From assembly GCF_000019965.1 (NCBI RefSeq), contig NC_010571.1, positions 930,001 through 994,000 of the forward strand: 64,000 nucleotides of DNA, given 5' to 3'. The position numbers and the translations under genes are program-made. The notes under the pieces are model-generated. The model saw only the letters and a list, made by a program, of their open reading frames with translations, ran no database searches and was not told the DNA's origin. Source of the DNA: Opitutus terrae PB90-1. Its GTDB lineage: Bacteria > Verrucomicrobiota > Verrucomicrobiia > Opitutales > Opitutaceae. Below are positions 24,676 through 43,120 of this stretch, piece by piece; the first letter of the stretch is position 1; each line of letters begins with the position of its first letter.

Positions 24676-24731
24676 ACCGATTTGGTCCGATGGAGCGGCG
24701 ATGTCCCGTCGCCAGTTACGAGCGACCTCAA

Positions 24732-24803
24732 CTACAGATGAACACTGATAAACACAGATTGAGACCGGATTTCCATCTGTGTTCATTTGTGTCCATCTGT
24801 GGT
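24732..24803. repeat. Bipartite inverted repeat A (ACAGATGAACAC-type arms)
   Basis: The left arm at 24732-24761 and the right arm at 24773-24803 are about 80% complementary. They consist of iterated ACAGATG-AACAC-like words, separated by only ~12 bp. The 3' arm reads CATCTGTGTTCATTTGTGTC. It lies between panB and panC. A degenerate relative (G) lies at 29073-29153. Confidence 0.75.
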
Positions 24804-24843: not shown

Positions 24844-25617
24844 ATGCCCAAACTGATCCACACCATCGCCGAGTGGCGGGCGCTGCGCGCGGAGCATCGC
24901 GCGGCGGGTCGCACGATCGGATTCGTTCCGACGATGGGCGCGCTGCACGAGGGACACGCGTCGCTGTTCCGCGCGGCGGCCGGTGAGCACCCGGTGGTGC
25001 TCGCGTCGGTCTTCGTCAACCCCACGCAGTTCGACGAGCAGCATGATTTCGAAAAATATCCGCGTACCCTCGCCGCGGACTGCGCGCTGATGGACGCCGC
25101 CGGCGTGACGGTCGCATTCGTCCCGTCGGTCGACGAGATGTATCCCAACGGCACGCGCTACGGCGTCGTCGAGACCGAGTTCAGCCGCGAGCTGTGCGGC
25201 GCGCACCGGCCGGGACATTTCGCTGGCATGCTCACGGTTGTGATGAAGCTGCTGCAGATCGCCGATGCGGAAGCCGCCTATTTCGGCGAAAAGGATTATC
25301 AGCAGCTGCTGTTGATCCGCGGCATGCGCGAGGCGTTTTTCCTACCGACGCGGATTGTCGGCTGTCCGATCATTCGCGAACCGGACGGGCTCGCGATGAG
25401 CTCGCGCAACGCCCGGCTCTCGTCGGCCGAGCGCGCGCTCGCGCCACAGTTTCACTCAGCGCTCGTCGCTGCCCCGACCGTCGAGCAAGCGCGCGCACGA
25501 CTCGAGGCGGCGGGTTTCCGCGTCGATTACGTCGAGGATCGCGACGGCCGTCGCTTCGGCGCCGTCCGGCTCGGCCAGACGCGGCTGATCGACAATGTCT
25601 CGTTGAGAGTTGAGTGA
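24844..25617 (+). CDS. panC: Pantoate-β-alanine ligase (pantothenate synthetase)
   Basis: A 257-residue enzyme joining pantoate and β-alanine with ATP. I start at MPKLIHTIAEWRALR. The nucleotide-binding signature is FVPTMGALHEGHASLFRAA (HxGH), followed by SVFVNPTQFDEQHDFEKYPRT, FGEKDYQQLLLIRGM and the KMSKS-equivalent GLAMSSRNARLS. It is slightly shorter than usual (~280), the loss being in the C-terminal domain. Its last codons and stop (LRVE-stop) lie inside the left arm of repeat B, so the native C-terminus may have been altered. Confidence 0.96.
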   Translation: MPKLIHTIAEWRALRAEHRAAGRTIGFVPTMGALHEGHASLFRAAAGEHPVVLASVFVNPTQFDEQHDFEKYPRTLAADCALMDAAGVTVAFVPSVDEMYPNGTRYGVVETEFSRELCGAHRPGHFAGMLTVVMKLLQIADAEAAYFGEKDYQQLLLIRGMREAFFLPTRIVGCPIIREPDGLAMSSRNARLSSAERALAPQFHSALVAAPTVEQARARLEAAGFRVDYVEDRDGRRFGAVRLGQTRLIDNVSLRVE

Positions 25618-25720
25618 TGAGAGTTGAGAGAACAACCAAGCTCTGATGCCGCCTCCCTCGCGAACGCGCCTTCGCGCCGGCCTGCTCCGGCCCTCAACTC
25701 TCAACCCTCAACTCTCATCT
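25601..25720. repeat. Bipartite inverted repeat B (GAGAGTTGAG-type arms)
   Basis: The left arm (25601-25632) iterates GAGAGTTGA. The right arm (25691-25720) iterates its complement CTCAACTCTCAACC. The ~60 bp between them contains a GC-rich hairpin (GCGAACGCG/CGCGCC). The left arm overlaps the end of panC. A single arm of the same family lies within miaB at 42506-42537. Confidence 0.75.
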
Positions 25721-36478: not shown

Positions 36479-38905
36479 ATGTTTGCCGGCATTGAATCCA
36501 TCGTTCATCGGCTGCGGCTCGGGCTGAGCCGCAACGAGTGGGCCATCCGCCACCTCGGGTTGACGCCGTCCGAAGGCACCAGCGAGGTACCTGGACTGTT
36601 GCTGATTCAGATCGACGGACTCGCCCGGTCGCAGGTGGAGGCGGCGTTGGCGGCGGGCCGGCTGCCGTTTCTGCGCCGGCTGCTGGAGCGCGAAGGCTAT
36701 GAGTTGCGGACGTTTTATCCGGGCCTGCCCTCCACGACCCCCGCCGTGCAGGCGGAGTTGTTCTACGGCGTGAAATCCGCCGTGCCCGCCTTCAGCTTTT
36801 TCGATCGCGTGCTGAAAAAAATGGGCCGGATGTGGGATCCCGATTGGGCCAAGGCCCGCGAATCCGCCTGTATGCAACAAGCGGAGGGCCTGCTCAAGGG
36901 CGGCAGTTCGTGGTCCAACATCTACACGGGCGGGGCCGCGCAGGAGGAAAGCCATTTTTGCGCCGCCAGCATCGGGCTGGGCGACATGTGGCGCTCGGGG
37001 AAGATTCGAAACATTTTTCTCTTCATCATCTTTCAGCTGCCCGCGGCGCTGCGGATCTTCTGGCTGCTGCTGATCGAGATGGCGGTGTCGGTGGGCGACG
37101 GCGTGCGCGCGATCGCCGCCGGCCGGCGGCCCTCGCCGGAGATCATGCTGATGCTCTCGCGGGTGTTCATCGGCGTCGGCCTGCGCGAACTGCTGACGAT
37201 CAGCGGTGAGATCGATGTGACGCGCGGGTTGCCGATCGTACACATCAACTTTGTCGGCTACGACGAGCAGGCGCACGTGCGCGGGCCGGGCTCACGGTTC
37301 GCGCATTTCGGGCTGCGCGGTATCGACACCGCGATCCGCAAGATCACGCGTGCCGCCCACCGCTCGCGTCGCCGCGACTACGCGGTCTGGATTTTTTCCG
37401 ACCACGGCCAGGAGCACACGCGATCGATTCTCGACGTGGTGCCGGGCGGGATCGAGCAGGTGATTTCCGAAAGTCTCGAGCAAACGCGCCGCAACGATCC
37501 AGTCTGGCAGCAGCGACAACGCCCGCGGCGCACGGCCGCTGCGCCGTGGCTCACGCAACGCCGACGCCTCACGCCGCCGTCGCGCGAAGAGCGCGCCGCG
37601 CTCGACGACCAGGGCCGCGGCTTCGTGGTCGCCGCGATGGGGCCGGTGGCCCACGTGTATTTCACCGAGCCGAAGACCGACGACCAACGGCGCGCGCTCG
37701 CGCGCACGCTCGTCCGCAGCGGCCATGTGCCCGGCGTGTTGCTGCGCGACGCCGCCGGCGAAATCACCTGGTTTCACGCGCAGGGCGAAACCCGCGTGCC
37801 AGGGGAGGTACCGGCGTTGCTGCCGCATCCGCCCACGCTGCGGGAGGAAATCGCGCGTGATTTGGTGGGCTTTACCGCGCACCCCGACGCCGGCGACTTG
37901 ATCCTCGTCGGTTGGAGCCCGTGGGACGCGCCCGTGAGTTTCGCGCCCGAGCGTGGCGCTCACGGCGGATTCGGCCCGAACGAGACGCAAGGCTTCGCAC
38001 TGCTGCCCTCGACCACCGAATTGCCGGCGGGGACCGACGATTTCATCCGGCCCGGCGCGCTGCGCACGGCGGCGCTTCACTATCTCGGCCGGCACAGCCT
38101 CGCCGCGCGCTCCCAACGGCTAGCTCCGGCGGCCAACCGGCTGCGGTTGATGACCTACAACGTCCACGGCTGCTCCGGGATGGACGGGCGCGTCTCGCCG
38201 CGCCGGGTTGCGCGGGTGATCGCCGCGCATGGCCCGGATCTCGTCGCGCTGCAGGAGATCGATCTCGGCCGCCGCCGTTCGCGCGCCGAAGACCAAGCCG
38301 CGTTGATCGCGCATCAGCTCGGGCTGCACATGGTGTTCTGCCCGACCGTCACGCGCGGCCAGGAGCACTATGGTCATGCGTTACTGAGCCGCTGGCCGAT
38401 CGAGGTGGTGAAACGCAAACTACTGCCGCACGATCCGCGCGGCTGGTGGAAGGAACCGCGAGCCGCGCTGTGGGCCCGCGTGTGGATCGGCGACACGCCG
38501 GTGCACGTCGTCACCACGCATCTCGGCCTCGGCCGGCGCGAGCGATTGCTGCAGATGAAGATGCTGCTCAGCCCGGAATGGCTCGGCGGATTGCGTGACG
38601 ACGAGAGAGTGGTGTTGTGCGGCGATTTCAACCTCACCCCGGGCAGCGCGCCCTACGGGCTCATGGCGAACCGGCTGCAAGATGCCCAAGCCGCGCGCGA
38701 CGGCCACCGACCGCTCAGCACCTTCAGCTCGAACCGGCCGTTCGTCCGGCTCGACCATATTTTCATTTCCCCGCACTTCCGCGTGCAGGACGTGCGCGTG
38801 CCGCGCTCGGAGCTCACTCGCGTCGCGTCCGATCACCTGCCGCTGATCGTGGATCTGGCACTTGCGCCTGCAGCCGCCGAAACGCCCACGCGCACGTCGC
38901 CGTGA
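36479..38905 (+). CDS. Fusion of alkaline-phosphatase-superfamily and EEP nuclease/phosphatase domains
   Basis: An 808-residue two-enzyme chain. Residues ~40-545 look like a nucleotide-pyrophosphatase/phosphodiesterase: LLIQIDGLARSQVEAALA (metal Asp), LPSTTPAVQAELFYGV (nucleophile Thr), GYDEQAHVRGP (metal Asp/His) and FSDHGQEH. Two hydrophobic helices near 180-205 (IFLFIIFQLPAALRIFWLLL) may anchor it. Residues ~555-800 are an endonuclease/exonuclease/phosphatase fold: LMTYNVHGC, LVALQEIDLG, VHVVTTHLGLG, VVLCGDFNLTPGS and ASDHLPLIVDL. Phospholipid or sphingolipid headgroup cleavage is one possibility. Its 3' end overlaps the convergent VTT gene by 92 bp. Confidence 0.88.
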   Translation: MFAGIESIVHRLRLGLSRNEWAIRHLGLTPSEGTSEVPGLLLIQIDGLARSQVEAALAAGRLPFLRRLLEREGYELRTFYPGLPSTTPAVQAELFYGVKSAVPAFSFFDRVLKKMGRMWDPDWAKARESACMQQAEGLLKGGSSWSNIYTGGAAQEESHFCAASIGLGDMWRSGKIRNIFLFIIFQLPAALRIFWLLLIEMAVSVGDGVRAIAAGRRPSPEIMLMLSRVFIGVGLRELLTISGEIDVTRGLPIVHINFVGYDEQAHVRGPGSRFAHFGLRGIDTAIRKITRAAHRSRRRDYAVWIFSDHGQEHTRSILDVVPGGIEQVISESLEQTRRNDPVWQQRQRPRRTAAAPWLTQRRRLTPPSREERAALDDQGRGFVVAAMGPVAHVYFTEPKTDDQRRALARTLVRSGHVPGVLLRDAAGEITWFHAQGETRVPGEVPALLPHPPTLREEIARDLVGFTAHPDAGDLILVGWSPWDAPVSFAPERGAHGGFGPNETQGFALLPSTTELPAGTDDFIRPGALRTAALHYLGRHSLAARSQRLAPAANRLRLMTYNVHGCSGMDGRVSPRRVARVIAAHGPDLVALQEIDLGRRRSRAEDQAALIAHQLGLHMVFCPTVTRGQEHYGHALLSRWPIEVVKRKLLPHDPRGWWKEPRAALWARVWIGDTPVHVVTTHLGLGRRERLLQMKMLLSPEWLGGLRDDERVVLCGDFNLTPGSAPYGLMANRLQDAQAARDGHRPLSTFSSNRPFVRLDHIFISPHFRVQDVRVPRSELTRVASDHLPLIVDLALAPAAAETPTRTSP

Positions 38906-40525: not shown

Positions 40526-41065
40526 CTAATACGTGAACGCCACGAGCGCGAGCAGCACGCCGTAGCCGATCAGCGCCGCGCCGAAACCGCGAGTGCGGCC
40601 GGCGCGGGCAAAGAGCCACTCGAAGAAGTCGCGCAGTCGAAACGGCGACGCGCCCAGCCAGATCGCGAGCGCGATGAGCAGGTAGACCAGCGAGACCAGG
40701 AACAGCCGCTGGGGATATTGGTATTCCATGTACGCAGCGCCGAGCAGCGGCGTCGCGGCGAGCAGCACCAGCACGCAGAGTCCGCGCACGGCCAGGAAAT
40801 CCGGCACGCATTTGAACGCCAGGATGGCCACGGCAGCGAAGCCGATGGCCAGGATCGTGCGGTAGTTGCCGAAATCCGCCGGTGACAAATGCCAGATGTT
40901 CCATAGGAACCACACGGCGCCGGCGCCGAAGAATAGCAGCGCCGCGGATTGCGAACGCGGCATCGCCTTCAAGGCCGCGACCGCCCGCGAGCTGTTGGCC
41001 AGCAAGGGCACACCGAGCGCGATGAGAAGCAGCCCGGGGAGGAGTGTGGCTAGAAGAAGACTCAT
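40526..41065 (-). CDS. Conserved membrane protein, 179 aa
   Basis: A 179-residue integral membrane protein of unknown function. Five hydrophobic segments are visible: about 3-24, 43-60 (AALLFFGAGAVWFLWNIWHL), 70-86, 90-112 and 118-138, with a final one at 160-178. The motif NIWHLSPADFGNYR lies after the second helix. It lies between gmk and the S23 cassette. No domain is recognised. Confidence 0.75.
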   Translation of the reverse strand: MSLLLATLLPGLLLIALGVPLLANSSRAVAALKAMPRSQSAALLFFGAGAVWFLWNIWHLSPADFGNYRTILAIGFAAVAILAFKCVPDFLAVRGLCVLVLLAATPLLGAAYMEYQYPQRLFLVSLVYLLIALAIWLGASPFRLRDFFEWLFARAGRTRGFGAALIGYGVLLALVAFTY

Positions 41066-41076
41066 GTGACGCGTCA

Positions 41077-41559
41077 GATCGTTCTCGTTCTCTTACTCTT
41101 TCTCGTTCTCTCAGGCGCCAGCAGTTTCGACGGAATAGGATGCCTGGTCCTCGTTGGTCTGTATGGCAAATCGTGCAATCAGACCGGCGATCATCGCGAC
41201 CACGCCGATAAGGATATCCTTTCCCTCGGCTGTTAAGTGTGAATCGAGCTTCTGCCGAGCGACAAGCACGTCCAGGCAAGCGGCACACTCAAGCGAGGAG
41301 CCCCGCGCGATGTCGAGGTAGCGGCATCGATCCGTCGTCGAACGCTTGCCGTTACCTTCCGCAATGTTGAGCACAACGCTCGTTGAGGCCCGGTCTAATT
41401 GATCTTTGGCCGCCAGCTTGGCAGGTAATTCCTCGATTATCGGCCCCACCCACGCCACGAACCGAAGCGCCTCTTGATAGGCGCGAAGTTTCTCGTGATC
41501 AAATTGCGCGGTCATTCCGGAAGGAGAACGAGAAAGAGAACGAAGAACGAGAACGATTA
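41077..41559. mobile_element. Inverted-repeat cassette D enclosing a four-helix-bundle gene
   Basis: The left arm (41077-41112, GTTCTCGTTCTCTTACTCTT...) and the right arm (41524-41559, GAGAACGAGAAAGAGAACGA...) are inverted partners with about 90% identity over 35 bp. Each is built from iterated GAGAACGA words. The only gene inside fills the interior almost exactly: its stop touches the left arm and its start lies 8 bp inside the right arm. The miaB stop codon falls at the right edge. A gene-less palindrome with the same arms lies at 58409-58500. Confidence 0.65.
41111..41515 (-). CDS. Four-helix-bundle protein (S23/bAvd-like)
   Basis: A 134-residue all-helical protein. FDHEKLRAYQEALRFVAWV starts helix 1. 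QLDRASTSVVLNIAEGNGK is the signature of the family, first seen in proteins encoded by intervening sequences of 23S rRNA genes and related to the Avd accessory protein of diversity-generating retroelements. YLDIARGSSLECAACLDVL is the third helix. Such proteins form positively charged pentamers and may bind nucleic acid. Here no rRNA is nearby; the gene sits alone between inverted repeats and may be their mobilising or stabilising partner. Confidence 0.9.
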   Translation of the reverse strand: MTAQFDHEKLRAYQEALRFVAWVGPIIEELPAKLAAKDQLDRASTSVVLNIAEGNGKRSTTDRCRYLDIARGSSLECAACLDVLVARQKLDSHLTAEGKDILIGVVAMIAGLIARFAIQTNEDQASYSVETAGA

Positions 41560-42999
41560 TTTCCTATTTCTTTCACGCCCAACTCCGGCGAGCATCAGCT
41601 CCCCGTACAACGTGCTCACGCTCGCCCGCGTGATCCGCAGCGACACGAGCCGGCCCACGAGATCCGGCGTGGCTTCGAAAATGCACACACGGTTGCCACG
41701 GGTGCGACCCGTGAAGCGTTGCCCCGTCTTGTCGGGACCTTCGACGAGCACTTCCTCCACCGTATCGAGCAGGAGCGCGTTCCGGCGCTCGGAGTTTTGC
41801 CGCAGCAACTCGAGCAGGAGCTGGTTGCGCTGTTCCTTCACGTCCTCCGGCACCTGGTCACCCCTCTCCGCCGCCGGCGTACCCGTGCGCACGGAATATT
41901 TGAAAACGTAGGCCATATCGTAATTGCAGGCCTCGAACAGCTCGCGGGTCTGCTCGAAATCCTCATCCGTCTCGCCCGGAAACCCGACGATCACATCCGT
42001 CGAAAAATACATGTCGCTGCGCACCGCCCGCAGCGCGTCGACGATCTCGCGATAGCGTTCGCGCGTGTAGGGCCGGTTCATCGCGCGCAGGATCCGGTTG
42101 CTGCCGCTTTGCAGCGGCAGATGCACGTAGCCGCAGAGCTTCGGCAGCCGACCGTAAGCGGCCACGAGGTCGTCCTTGAACCCGCGCGGATGCGGCGAGG
42201 TGAAGCGGATCCGTTCGATCCCATCGAGCGCGTGGACGCGCTCGAGCAACTGCACGAAGGGAGAAATCCCGTTCGTGTGCGTGTAGTCGCGACGGCCGTA
42301 GCTGGTGACGATCTGACCGAGCAGCGTGACCTCGCGAACGCCGCGCGCGGCGAGTTGCTCGCACTCGCGCACGATGTCGTCCATCGGCCGCGAACGCTCG
42401 TCGCCGCGGGTTTTCGGGACGATGCAGAACGCGCAATCCATGTTGCAGCCCTGCTGGATCGAAACGAAGGCGGTGATCTGCGGCGGGGGGGCGGCGGCGC
42501 CGCGCAGTTGAGAGTTGAGCGTTGAGGGTTGAGAGTCGGAATCAGAATCCTGCGGGAGGAGGTGGTCCTTGATCGTGTTCTGCGAGCCGGCTTCCTCGCC
42601 GATGTCGACGATCGTCTCGCCGATCGGCACGCCGGCGTCGCGCGCGGCGCGCAGGTTGTCCAGATAGCCGGGCACCTGGTGAAATTTCTGCGTGCCGACG
42701 ATCAGGTCCACGTCGGGCAGCTGATCCAGCAGCGACGCGCCGCGGTTCTGGGCCATGCAGCCGAGAATCCCGAGCACGAAGTCCGGCTGCTTCTTTTTGC
42801 GCTGCTGCAGGTAGCCGGCTTTGCCGATGGCCTTCTGTTCGGCGGCATCGCGCACGGAGCAGGTGTTGAGCAGCAGGATGTCGCAGTCGTTCTCGTCCGC
42901 GACGATCCGGTAACCGCGCGCGCGCAGCATCGCCGCGACCGCCTCGCTGTCGCGCTCGTTCATCTGGCAGCCGTAGGTCTTGATGTGGACGCGATTCAC
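41557..42999 (-). CDS. miaB: tRNA-2-methylthio-N6-dimethylallyladenosine synthase, with inserted repeat peptide
   Basis: A 480-residue radical-SAM methylthiotransferase acting on i6A37 of tRNA. I take a GTG start at 42999 giving VNRVHIKTYGCQMNERDSEA. The UPF0004 cluster Cys are in GCQMN, LLNTCSVRD and LGCMAQ. The radical-SAM cluster is GCNMDCAFCIVPKTRGDERS. GDDRS..TFPGETDEDF-type VGFPGETDEDFEQT and a C-terminal TRAM domain follow. The linker between the first two domains (SDSDSQPSTLNSQL) is encoded by a GAGAGTTGA repeat arm, in frame. The stop codon lies at the edge of cassette D. Confidence 0.95.
   Translation of the reverse strand: MNRVHIKTYGCQMNERDSEAVAAMLRARGYRIVADENDCDILLLNTCSVRDAAEQKAIGKAGYLQQRKKKQPDFVLGILGCMAQNRGASLLDQLPDVDLIVGTQKFHQVPGYLDNLRAARDAGVPIGETIVDIGEEAGSQNTIKDHLLPQDSDSDSQPSTLNSQLRGAAAPPPQITAFVSIQQGCNMDCAFCIVPKTRGDERSRPMDDIVRECEQLAARGVREVTLLGQIVTSYGRRDYTHTNGISPFVQLLERVHALDGIERIRFTSPHPRGFKDDLVAAYGRLPKLCGYVHLPLQSGSNRILRAMNRPYTRERYREIVDALRAVRSDMYFSTDVIVGFPGETDEDFEQTRELFEACNYDMAYVFKYSVRTGTPAAERGDQVPEDVKEQRNQLLLELLRQNSERRNALLLDTVEEVLVEGPDKTGQRFTGRTRGNRVCIFEATPDLVGRLVSLRITRASVSTLYGELMLAGVGRERNRK
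42506..42537. repeat. Single GAGAGTTGA repeat arm inside miaB
   Basis: GTTGAGAGTTGAGCGTTGAG followed by GGTTGAGAGT, the same word set as repeat B arms at 25601-25720. Translated on the minus strand it gives QPSTLNSQL in the MiaB linker. Confidence 0.7.
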
Positions 43000-43120
43000 A
43001 GGCGGAGCGGTCCTACGTAGCCACAGCGTCCCGCGCGTCAACGCGGGAAACCCAAGCCATGCTCGGCATCCTCAGCGATATTTGGGGGCGGTCATCGGCA
43101 CCTAACTGCACCGAAGCGAG

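Follow-up and report, generated by a model that had tools for sequence, protein, structure and literature searches.

Inverted arrays of short words box S23-type four-helix-bundle genes in Opitutus terrae and other bacteria

Genes of the S23 family, which was first met within insertions in ribosomal RNA, lie between inverted arms made of tandem short words far more often than control intervals do. We analysed one such locus, a cassette of 480 bp in a 64-kb stretch of the Opitutus terrae PB90-1 genome (the window), which a sequence-only reading had singled out as a four-helix-bundle gene boxed by inverted repeats. This original observation is confirmed and proves too modest, as the boxed design recurs around the gene family. 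Arm sequences are highly variable, but the period of the words corresponds to the enclosed family and, among S23 genes, follows the protein phylogeny. Within a locus the two arms remain alike even as orthologous loci diverge from one another, and spacers that hold a cassette in one genome hold gene-less relatives or a different cassette in others. We read the window feature as a word-armed S23 cassette, an intervening-sequence-like (IVS-like) selfish element of intergenic spacers whose oligomeric protein would read the arm words, and give this reading an even chance of being correct.

The window cassette and its surroundings

The cassette and its immediate neighbours are arranged as follows (positions in the window; the arms carry no strand).

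40526 to 41065, minus strand: conserved open reading frame (ORF) just downstream of the cassette, with no Pfam match
41078 to 41110: left arm, 3′ of the gene in gene sense, an array of CGTTCT-type hexamers defined by inverted alignment with the right arm
41111 to 41515, minus strand: S23-type four-helix-bundle gene of 134 aa (PF05635 / TIGR02436; Pfam, NCBIfam, AlphaFold2 and Foldseek)
41524 to 41557: right arm, 5′ of the gene in gene sense, reverse-complement hexamers adjoining the miaB stop codon, defined by inverted alignment
41557 to 43041, minus strand: miaB-type gene just upstream of the cassette (Pfam Radical_SAM, UPF0004 and TRAM)

A Pfam scan of the enclosed ORF returned PF05635 (23S_rRNA_IVP) as its sole match (E 1.7e-20), and the gene also matches TIGR02436, ‘four helix bundle protein’, in NCBIfam. 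Aligned as inverted copies, the arms of 33–34 nt are identical in 31 of 34 columns, the remainder being two mismatches and one gap, which bears out the description of an S23/bAvd-like gene between near-perfect inverted arms. The coordinates likewise agree with the boundaries read from the letters: the stop codon (41111–41113) adjoins the left arm without a gap, and 8 nt separate the start codon (41513–41515) from the right arm. Both arms are tandem hexamers of the CGTTCT type with a best period of 6, and they base-pair with each other when the fold of the cassette is predicted. Not one Rfam family scores at its gathering threshold in the 64-kb window, so that no rRNA was recognised there, and the cassette lies outside an rRNA gene, as had been stated.

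The upstream neighbour, which we take to be MiaB, was matched in all 38 genomes searched, and an ORF resembling the downstream neighbour follows miaB in at least 21 of the 27 miaB loci compared by eye. Among the three neighbouring ORFs scanned (the miaB-type gene, the ORF with no Pfam match and a guanylate kinase) there is no reverse transcriptase, and Pfam assigns no catalytic domain to the cassette itself.

The AlphaFold2 model of the window S23 protein is a four-helix bundle (pLDDT 95.4). Foldseek matched it to 2gsc (XCC0516 of Xanthomonas campestris) and 2rld (BT_0352), and also to Avd of diversity-generating retroelements (4dwl, 8ub7; TM ~0.7, E ~0.01). S23 family members form five-membered rings, and the five chains in each of the entries 2gsc and 2rld are consistent with this. 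Although the 2gsc crystal structure was released in 2006, we know of no established function for S23 proteins.

Besides the cassette, the array detector found palindromes of similar build that enclose no gene.

24730 to 24801, no strand: gene-less palindrome with a word of ~10 nt (ATCTGTGTTC) and the grammar seen at GxxExxY cassettes
25602 to 25717, no strand: gene-less palindrome with the heptamer word GTTGAGA, which also boxes S23 gene L002 of the window genome
58411 to 58498, no strand: gene-less palindrome with hexamer words as in the window cassette (detector score 39)

The last of these is the gene-less palindrome with shared arm words that had been placed 17 kb from the cassette. One Markov-shuffled copy of the window contained zero inverted arrays. 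A fifth detector match in the window, at 37097–37712, was discarded because it resembles GC-rich noise.

Boxed genes in related and distant genomes

We searched 38 genomes of the same order, the window genome included, for PF05635. The family is present in 26 of them, with 131 matches summed per genome, and absent from 12. Inverted arms were sought within 250 nt of 96 of the 131 matches, 94 of which had enough flank; the arm score reaches at least 28 in 68 of these 94 loci and at least 26 in 74, so that genes between such arms are by no means confined to the window genome. Same-locus controls, drawn for the first 36 related loci only, gave scores of at least 28 in 2 of 178 intervals, compared with 26 of the 36 loci themselves. 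The pattern extends to a wider sample from many phyla, which is non-random because the best-scoring 80 of at least 576 confirmed stretches were chosen: of its 79 testable loci, 53 score at least 28 and 57 at least 26, as against 13 and 20 of 1228 same-locus controls. A single query for S23 in phage records produced no match.

The arrangement is common but not universal, and for roughly one S23 gene in three or four the arms stay below threshold. In the window genome 6 of 8 S23 genes score at least 26; of the exceptions, L001 scores only 22, and L005 is unboxed, having a small palindrome to just one side. When strictly periodic arrays are demanded on both sides, 22 of 116 loci qualify at a score of at least 14 and 47 of 116 at a score of at least 10, against a background of 3.4% and 7.0%, respectively, of 1578 single control stretches; strictly periodic arrays are few because the words are degenerate. 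Inverted arms also accompany 9 of 10 plasmid-borne S23 genes (nine cyanobacterial, one from Riemerella), a figure that stands without a control comparison; the remaining one (L238) has direct rather than inverted arrays.

On the plasmids of Pseudanabaena (L238) and Anabaena (L241), S23 genes lie between cas6 and cas4. The Anabaena gene has inverted AGGTGAC arms, and the Pseudanabaena gene is the one with direct arrays. A published survey counted 18 S23 genes in cas loci, and its section 15 makes no mention of arms (PMC3936711).

A second small family shares the design. GxxExxY genes, which correspond to PF13366 and TIGR04256 (checked for one gene), are boxed with a score of at least 28 at 25 of the 30 loci examined out of 114 matches in the same genome set, and none of 133 controls reached that score. 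Their arms have a median length of 32 nt, with the period peaking at 9 (10 loci), 10 (8), 8 (6) or 6 (1) among the 25. On eight plasmids of other taxa, arms scoring at least 26 accompany only 3 of the 8 GxxExxY genes.

Arm words, shared spacers and alternative readings

No word sequence is common to all loci, although related proteins often have related words. What recurs is the spacing. Of 120 boxed S23 genes, 89 have a best period of 7 nt, 21 one of 8 nt, seven one of 6 nt and three some other value; the window copy, with its hexamers, departs from the prevailing heptamers. In the related genomes the S23 arms have a median length of 31 nt and a peak period of 7 in 53 of 68, and the 5′ arrays detected there have period 7 in 49 of 64, with a median of 4.4 copies, mostly 5 or 4. 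The sequence-only reading picked out one word; the more general rule is that each protein family keeps its period although the words vary by locus.

Within S23 the period follows descent. On a FastTree phylogeny of the proteins, restricted to the 110 rows with period 7 or 8, the period label changes 10 times. Shuffling the labels over all rows required a minimum of 16 changes, and shuffling within three phylum groups a minimum of 14; in both cases 0 of 300 shuffles was as low as the observed value. Word similarity also tracks protein similarity across 74 boxed loci (Mantel r 0.43, p 0.0005), and the outer flanks show a slight correlation of their own (r 0.06, p 0.009). Much of the protein–word correlation reflects shared descent, since 11 of 18 chosen pairs of similar cassettes are orthologous loci with both flanks homologous, and we rejected word similarity as a sign of movement after this flank comparison. 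The other 7 pairs are without matching flanks on both sides, though several of them include one partner with a flank of only ~250–350 nt; L039 and L064, both in G031, are the clearest example of two copies at unrelated places. Word similarity does not follow the genome: the nearest arm (similarity of at least 0.3) lies in the same genome in 2 of 51 cases, with 4.3% expected by chance, and nearest-word neighbours come mostly from other genomes, usually with related proteins.

The two arms of a locus nevertheless remain alike while orthologous loci drift. Arms within one locus are closer to each other than arms across orthologues in 18 of 20 comparisons, with 2 ties (p 0.0002), and closer than the same-side orthologous arm in 15 of 20 (p 0.036), both p-values being only indicative because the pairs share members.

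Comparison of orthologous spacers bears on the age of the window copy. By eye, an S23 cassette follows miaB in five genomes of four genera: G000, which is the window genome, and G001 (one genus), together with G006, G023 and G024. In G002 a truncated S23 gene and one arm follow miaB (L203), and in G022 only the other arm is left (L220); these decayed cassettes suggest how gene-less forms may arise. The miaB spacer is empty in several genomes, for example G007, G009, G013 and G018, and seemingly holds arrays of other words, judged by eye and unscored, in G005, G014, G015, G017, G020 and G021. Recent insertion of the window copy was rejected, because the same post-miaB cassette is found in five genomes and degraded forms in G002 and G022. 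Among the miaB-linked S23 genes, dN/dS is 0.07–0.15 in 6 of 10 pairs, with dS above 1.4 even in these six; the remaining 4 pairs have saturated synonymous sites. The window copy is old, since five genomes of four genera share its site beside miaB, and it is under purifying selection. Of the mobile cassette that had been proposed, the association of gene and arms as one unit is well supported, the refuting outcome named beforehand, a lack of such boxed genes in every other genome, having failed to appear; but the window copy itself is no recent arrival.

The gyrB–gyrA spacer likewise varies in its occupants. We compared 26 loci, which yielded 25 spacers, as the G032 locus is without gyrB. S23 cassettes occupy the spacer in G002 and G017, and GxxExxY cassettes in G001 and G007. 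Clear gene-less palindromes are present in G000, G003, G009, G013, G022 and G023 (scores 24–49, 0 of 40 shuffles each), and weaker ones in G006 (score 21, 0 of 40 shuffles) and G016 (score 19, 1 of 40). Toxin–antitoxin pairs fill two more spacers, HicB-like plus HicA by Pfam in G020 (L317) and MazE plus PIN in G005 (L318); neither has inverted arms (end scores 15 and 14). Nothing is evident in the other eleven. No target-site duplication could be read, filled and empty spacers of both miaB and gyrB–gyrA being too diverged for exact junctions.

The arms might be only hairpins for RNA processing or stability, in which case the element would be inert, host RNase III or slippage would shape the arms, and the protein would serve something unrelated such as regulation. 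Inverted arms would indeed give a strong RNA stem, the stem of the Coxiella IVS is cut by RNase III (PMC4990558), and most S23 genes are co-directional with their upstream neighbour (28 of 34 in the relatives, 69 of 80 in the wider set). GxxExxY genes, however, show no clear bias to the upstream strand (18 of 30), and hairpins alone leave unexplained why S23 arms have period 7 and GxxExxY arms period 9–10 in the same genome set, why the period follows the S23 tree, and why the two toxin–antitoxin pairs in the gyrB–gyrA spacer are armless. We consider this account rather unlikely.

Gene-less arrays are also dispersed through the genomes. In the window genome, a single contig of 5957605 bases, the doubled word GAGAACGAGAACGA occurs in 56 copies, as against 0 for the pattern read backwards. 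The copies form 36 clusters, and 15 of the 18 clusters inspected have an inverted partner within 200 nt; the three others are the window cassette, whose partner lies beyond the stretch examined, and the lone arrays L012 and L025. In L025 (at ~1371137) a single GAGAACGA array with no inverted partner apparently runs in frame within a coding gene, presumably GlgE-like.

Copy numbers of the four words tested show only imperfect agreement with the presence of a resident gene that has the word, AGTAGCG agreeing least. Where a matching cassette is present, GAGAACGAGAACGA reaches 56 copies in G000, 40 in G001, 19 in G023 and 49 in G024; elsewhere it occurs 190 times in G006, where the cassette arms have changed, 31 times in G017, where no such cassette was found, and 12 times in G022, with its degraded cassette. 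For AGTTGAGAGTTGAG there are 70 and 13 copies in genomes with a matching gene, and 15 in G004, which has no S23 match at all. AGTAGCGAGTAGCG is present in 0, 0 and 11 copies in three genomes with a match, in 11–18 copies in four without one, and in 2 and 4 copies in two more. GATTTTCGATTTTCGAT is found 3 and 16 times with a match, and 11, 10, 9 and 3 times, plus some single copies, without one; two of its copies in G022 adjoin an S23 match (C3:9566). The per-genome counts thus give no support to the idea that gene-less words strictly require a resident gene; they imply that gene-less arrays outlive the gene, travel apart from it or depend on genes that were not matched. Dispersal of gene-less relatives, as suggested earlier, is supported, whereas autonomous spread of the arms is only one reading of their imperfect match to resident genes, gene loss being another.

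Host-made short tandem repeats might instead be capture sites for small genes, the arms belonging to the host repeat machinery. Gene-less arrays are common enough for this: samples of 100 kb hold 1 inverted array in G000, 1 in G020, 3 in G004 and 0 in G028 (0 in one shuffled copy of each), and some arrays, such as L012 and L025, are single. G004 is free of S23, but it has two GxxExxY genes, and two of its three arrays are of the 8-nt type; G028 has neither family. Against capture stand the dependence of arm period on the enclosed family, the location of nearest-word neighbours mostly in other genomes and usually beside related proteins, and the lack of arms at the HicBA and MazE–PIN pairs in the same spacer, all of which make it decidedly improbable. 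That the arms are termini for an unlinked transposase in REP/RAYT or MITE style, with the S23 gene as cargo, would suit the many gene-less copies per genome and the 7 of 18 chosen pairs in which genes with like arms are without matching flanks on both sides (several with a short flank), but two small families, arm sequences unrelated at most loci and a protein-tied period are unexpected for one transposase, and with no target-site duplication seen in spacers too diverged for exact junctions we give it very little weight.

Possible mechanism and relation to known systems

That the S23 protein acts on the arms would account for the protein-dependent arm period, which argues for it. Because the arm sequence varies while the period follows family and lineage, the simplest reason would be recognition of the spacing by the protein and, inside a lineage, of the word as well. 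Most likely, the Avd-type four-helix bundle forms a ring that binds an arm as single-stranded RNA or DNA, with one word of ~7 nt per subunit. Arms hold about 4–5 words, and a ring of five subunits at 7 nt each would span ~35 nt, near the arm length. TRAP, which binds repeated triplets around its ring, offers an analogy. The arms would most probably be the recognition ends of the element, and the gene-less palindromes its deletion derivatives or passengers. Pairing of the arms in the transcript could explain why insertion between co-directional genes is tolerated, by analogy with the IVSs cut by RNase III. With no catalytic domain recognised by Pfam in the cassette, copying to new sites would have to rely on an enzyme of the host, such as a reverse transcriptase or a repair polymerase.

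Several known systems resemble the word-armed cassette in part. Avd of diversity-generating retroelements has the same four-helix-bundle fold, but the window cassette has no adjacent reverse transcriptase among the three ORFs scanned. REP/BIME elements with a RAYT transposase likewise consist of a gene flanked by inverted short repeats together with many gene-less copies. Unlike these, the window cassette encloses a gene that matches only PF05635 and not a Y1 (TnpA_REP) transposase, and the arms are word arrays without a common sequence.

The closest parallel is the IVS of 23S rRNA. In Coxiella burnetii an S23 ORF lies in the loop of an inverted-repeat stem, the element being 428–444 nt long with a stem of 28 bp; it is described as selfish and horizontally acquired, and the function and origin of rRNA IVSs as unclear (PMC4990558). 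The window cassette shares the S23-family ORF enclosed by an inverted-repeat stem. It differs in lying outside a 23S rRNA helix, between miaB and a conserved ORF, and in having arms made of tandem short words that change by locus; moreover, its gene-less relatives are scattered in the genome and a second protein family shares the design.

The arms themselves recall the heptameric intergenic repeats GGGAATC of Xanthomonas and GGGGA(C/T)T of Nostoc, of which 70 and 75 convergent inverted pairs were counted in two Xanthomonas genomes; in its passages on their origin that paper offers only polymerase slippage (PMC4692102). TAACTGA heptamers are repeated in Beggiatoaceae, where the author raised the speculative possibility of a repeat-binding protein being the mobile element itself (PMC4679880), and a passage on Thiomargarita reports TAACTGA and palindromic repeats with S23 unmentioned (PMC4853749). 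Like S23 arms, these are tandem 7-nt words, mostly intergenic and in part arranged as inverted pairs. The term ‘S23’ is absent from the main texts of PMC4692102 and PMC4679880, and among the open-licence literature matches listed (titles, abstract starts and passages) none joined S23/IVP or GxxExxY genes with repeated-word arms.

A bolder reading, which we hold somewhat less likely than not, is that word-armed cassettes make up a class of mobile element that is widespread but has escaped recognition. An oligomeric protein, the S23 pentamer or the nuclease-like GxxExxY, would read a run of like words, one per subunit; the protein would thereby set the period, and the word could drift yet stay equal in both arms. 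Such cassettes would be the source of the long-unexplained heptamers in Xanthomonas, Nostoc and Beggiatoaceae, with the rRNA IVS as a special case that has made its home in rRNA. The boxed design may then explain some of the puzzling short repeats scattered in bacterial genomes, and the shared anatomy with its protein-tied period joins three puzzles, the function of S23, the rRNA IVS and the heptameric repeats, into one hypothesis.
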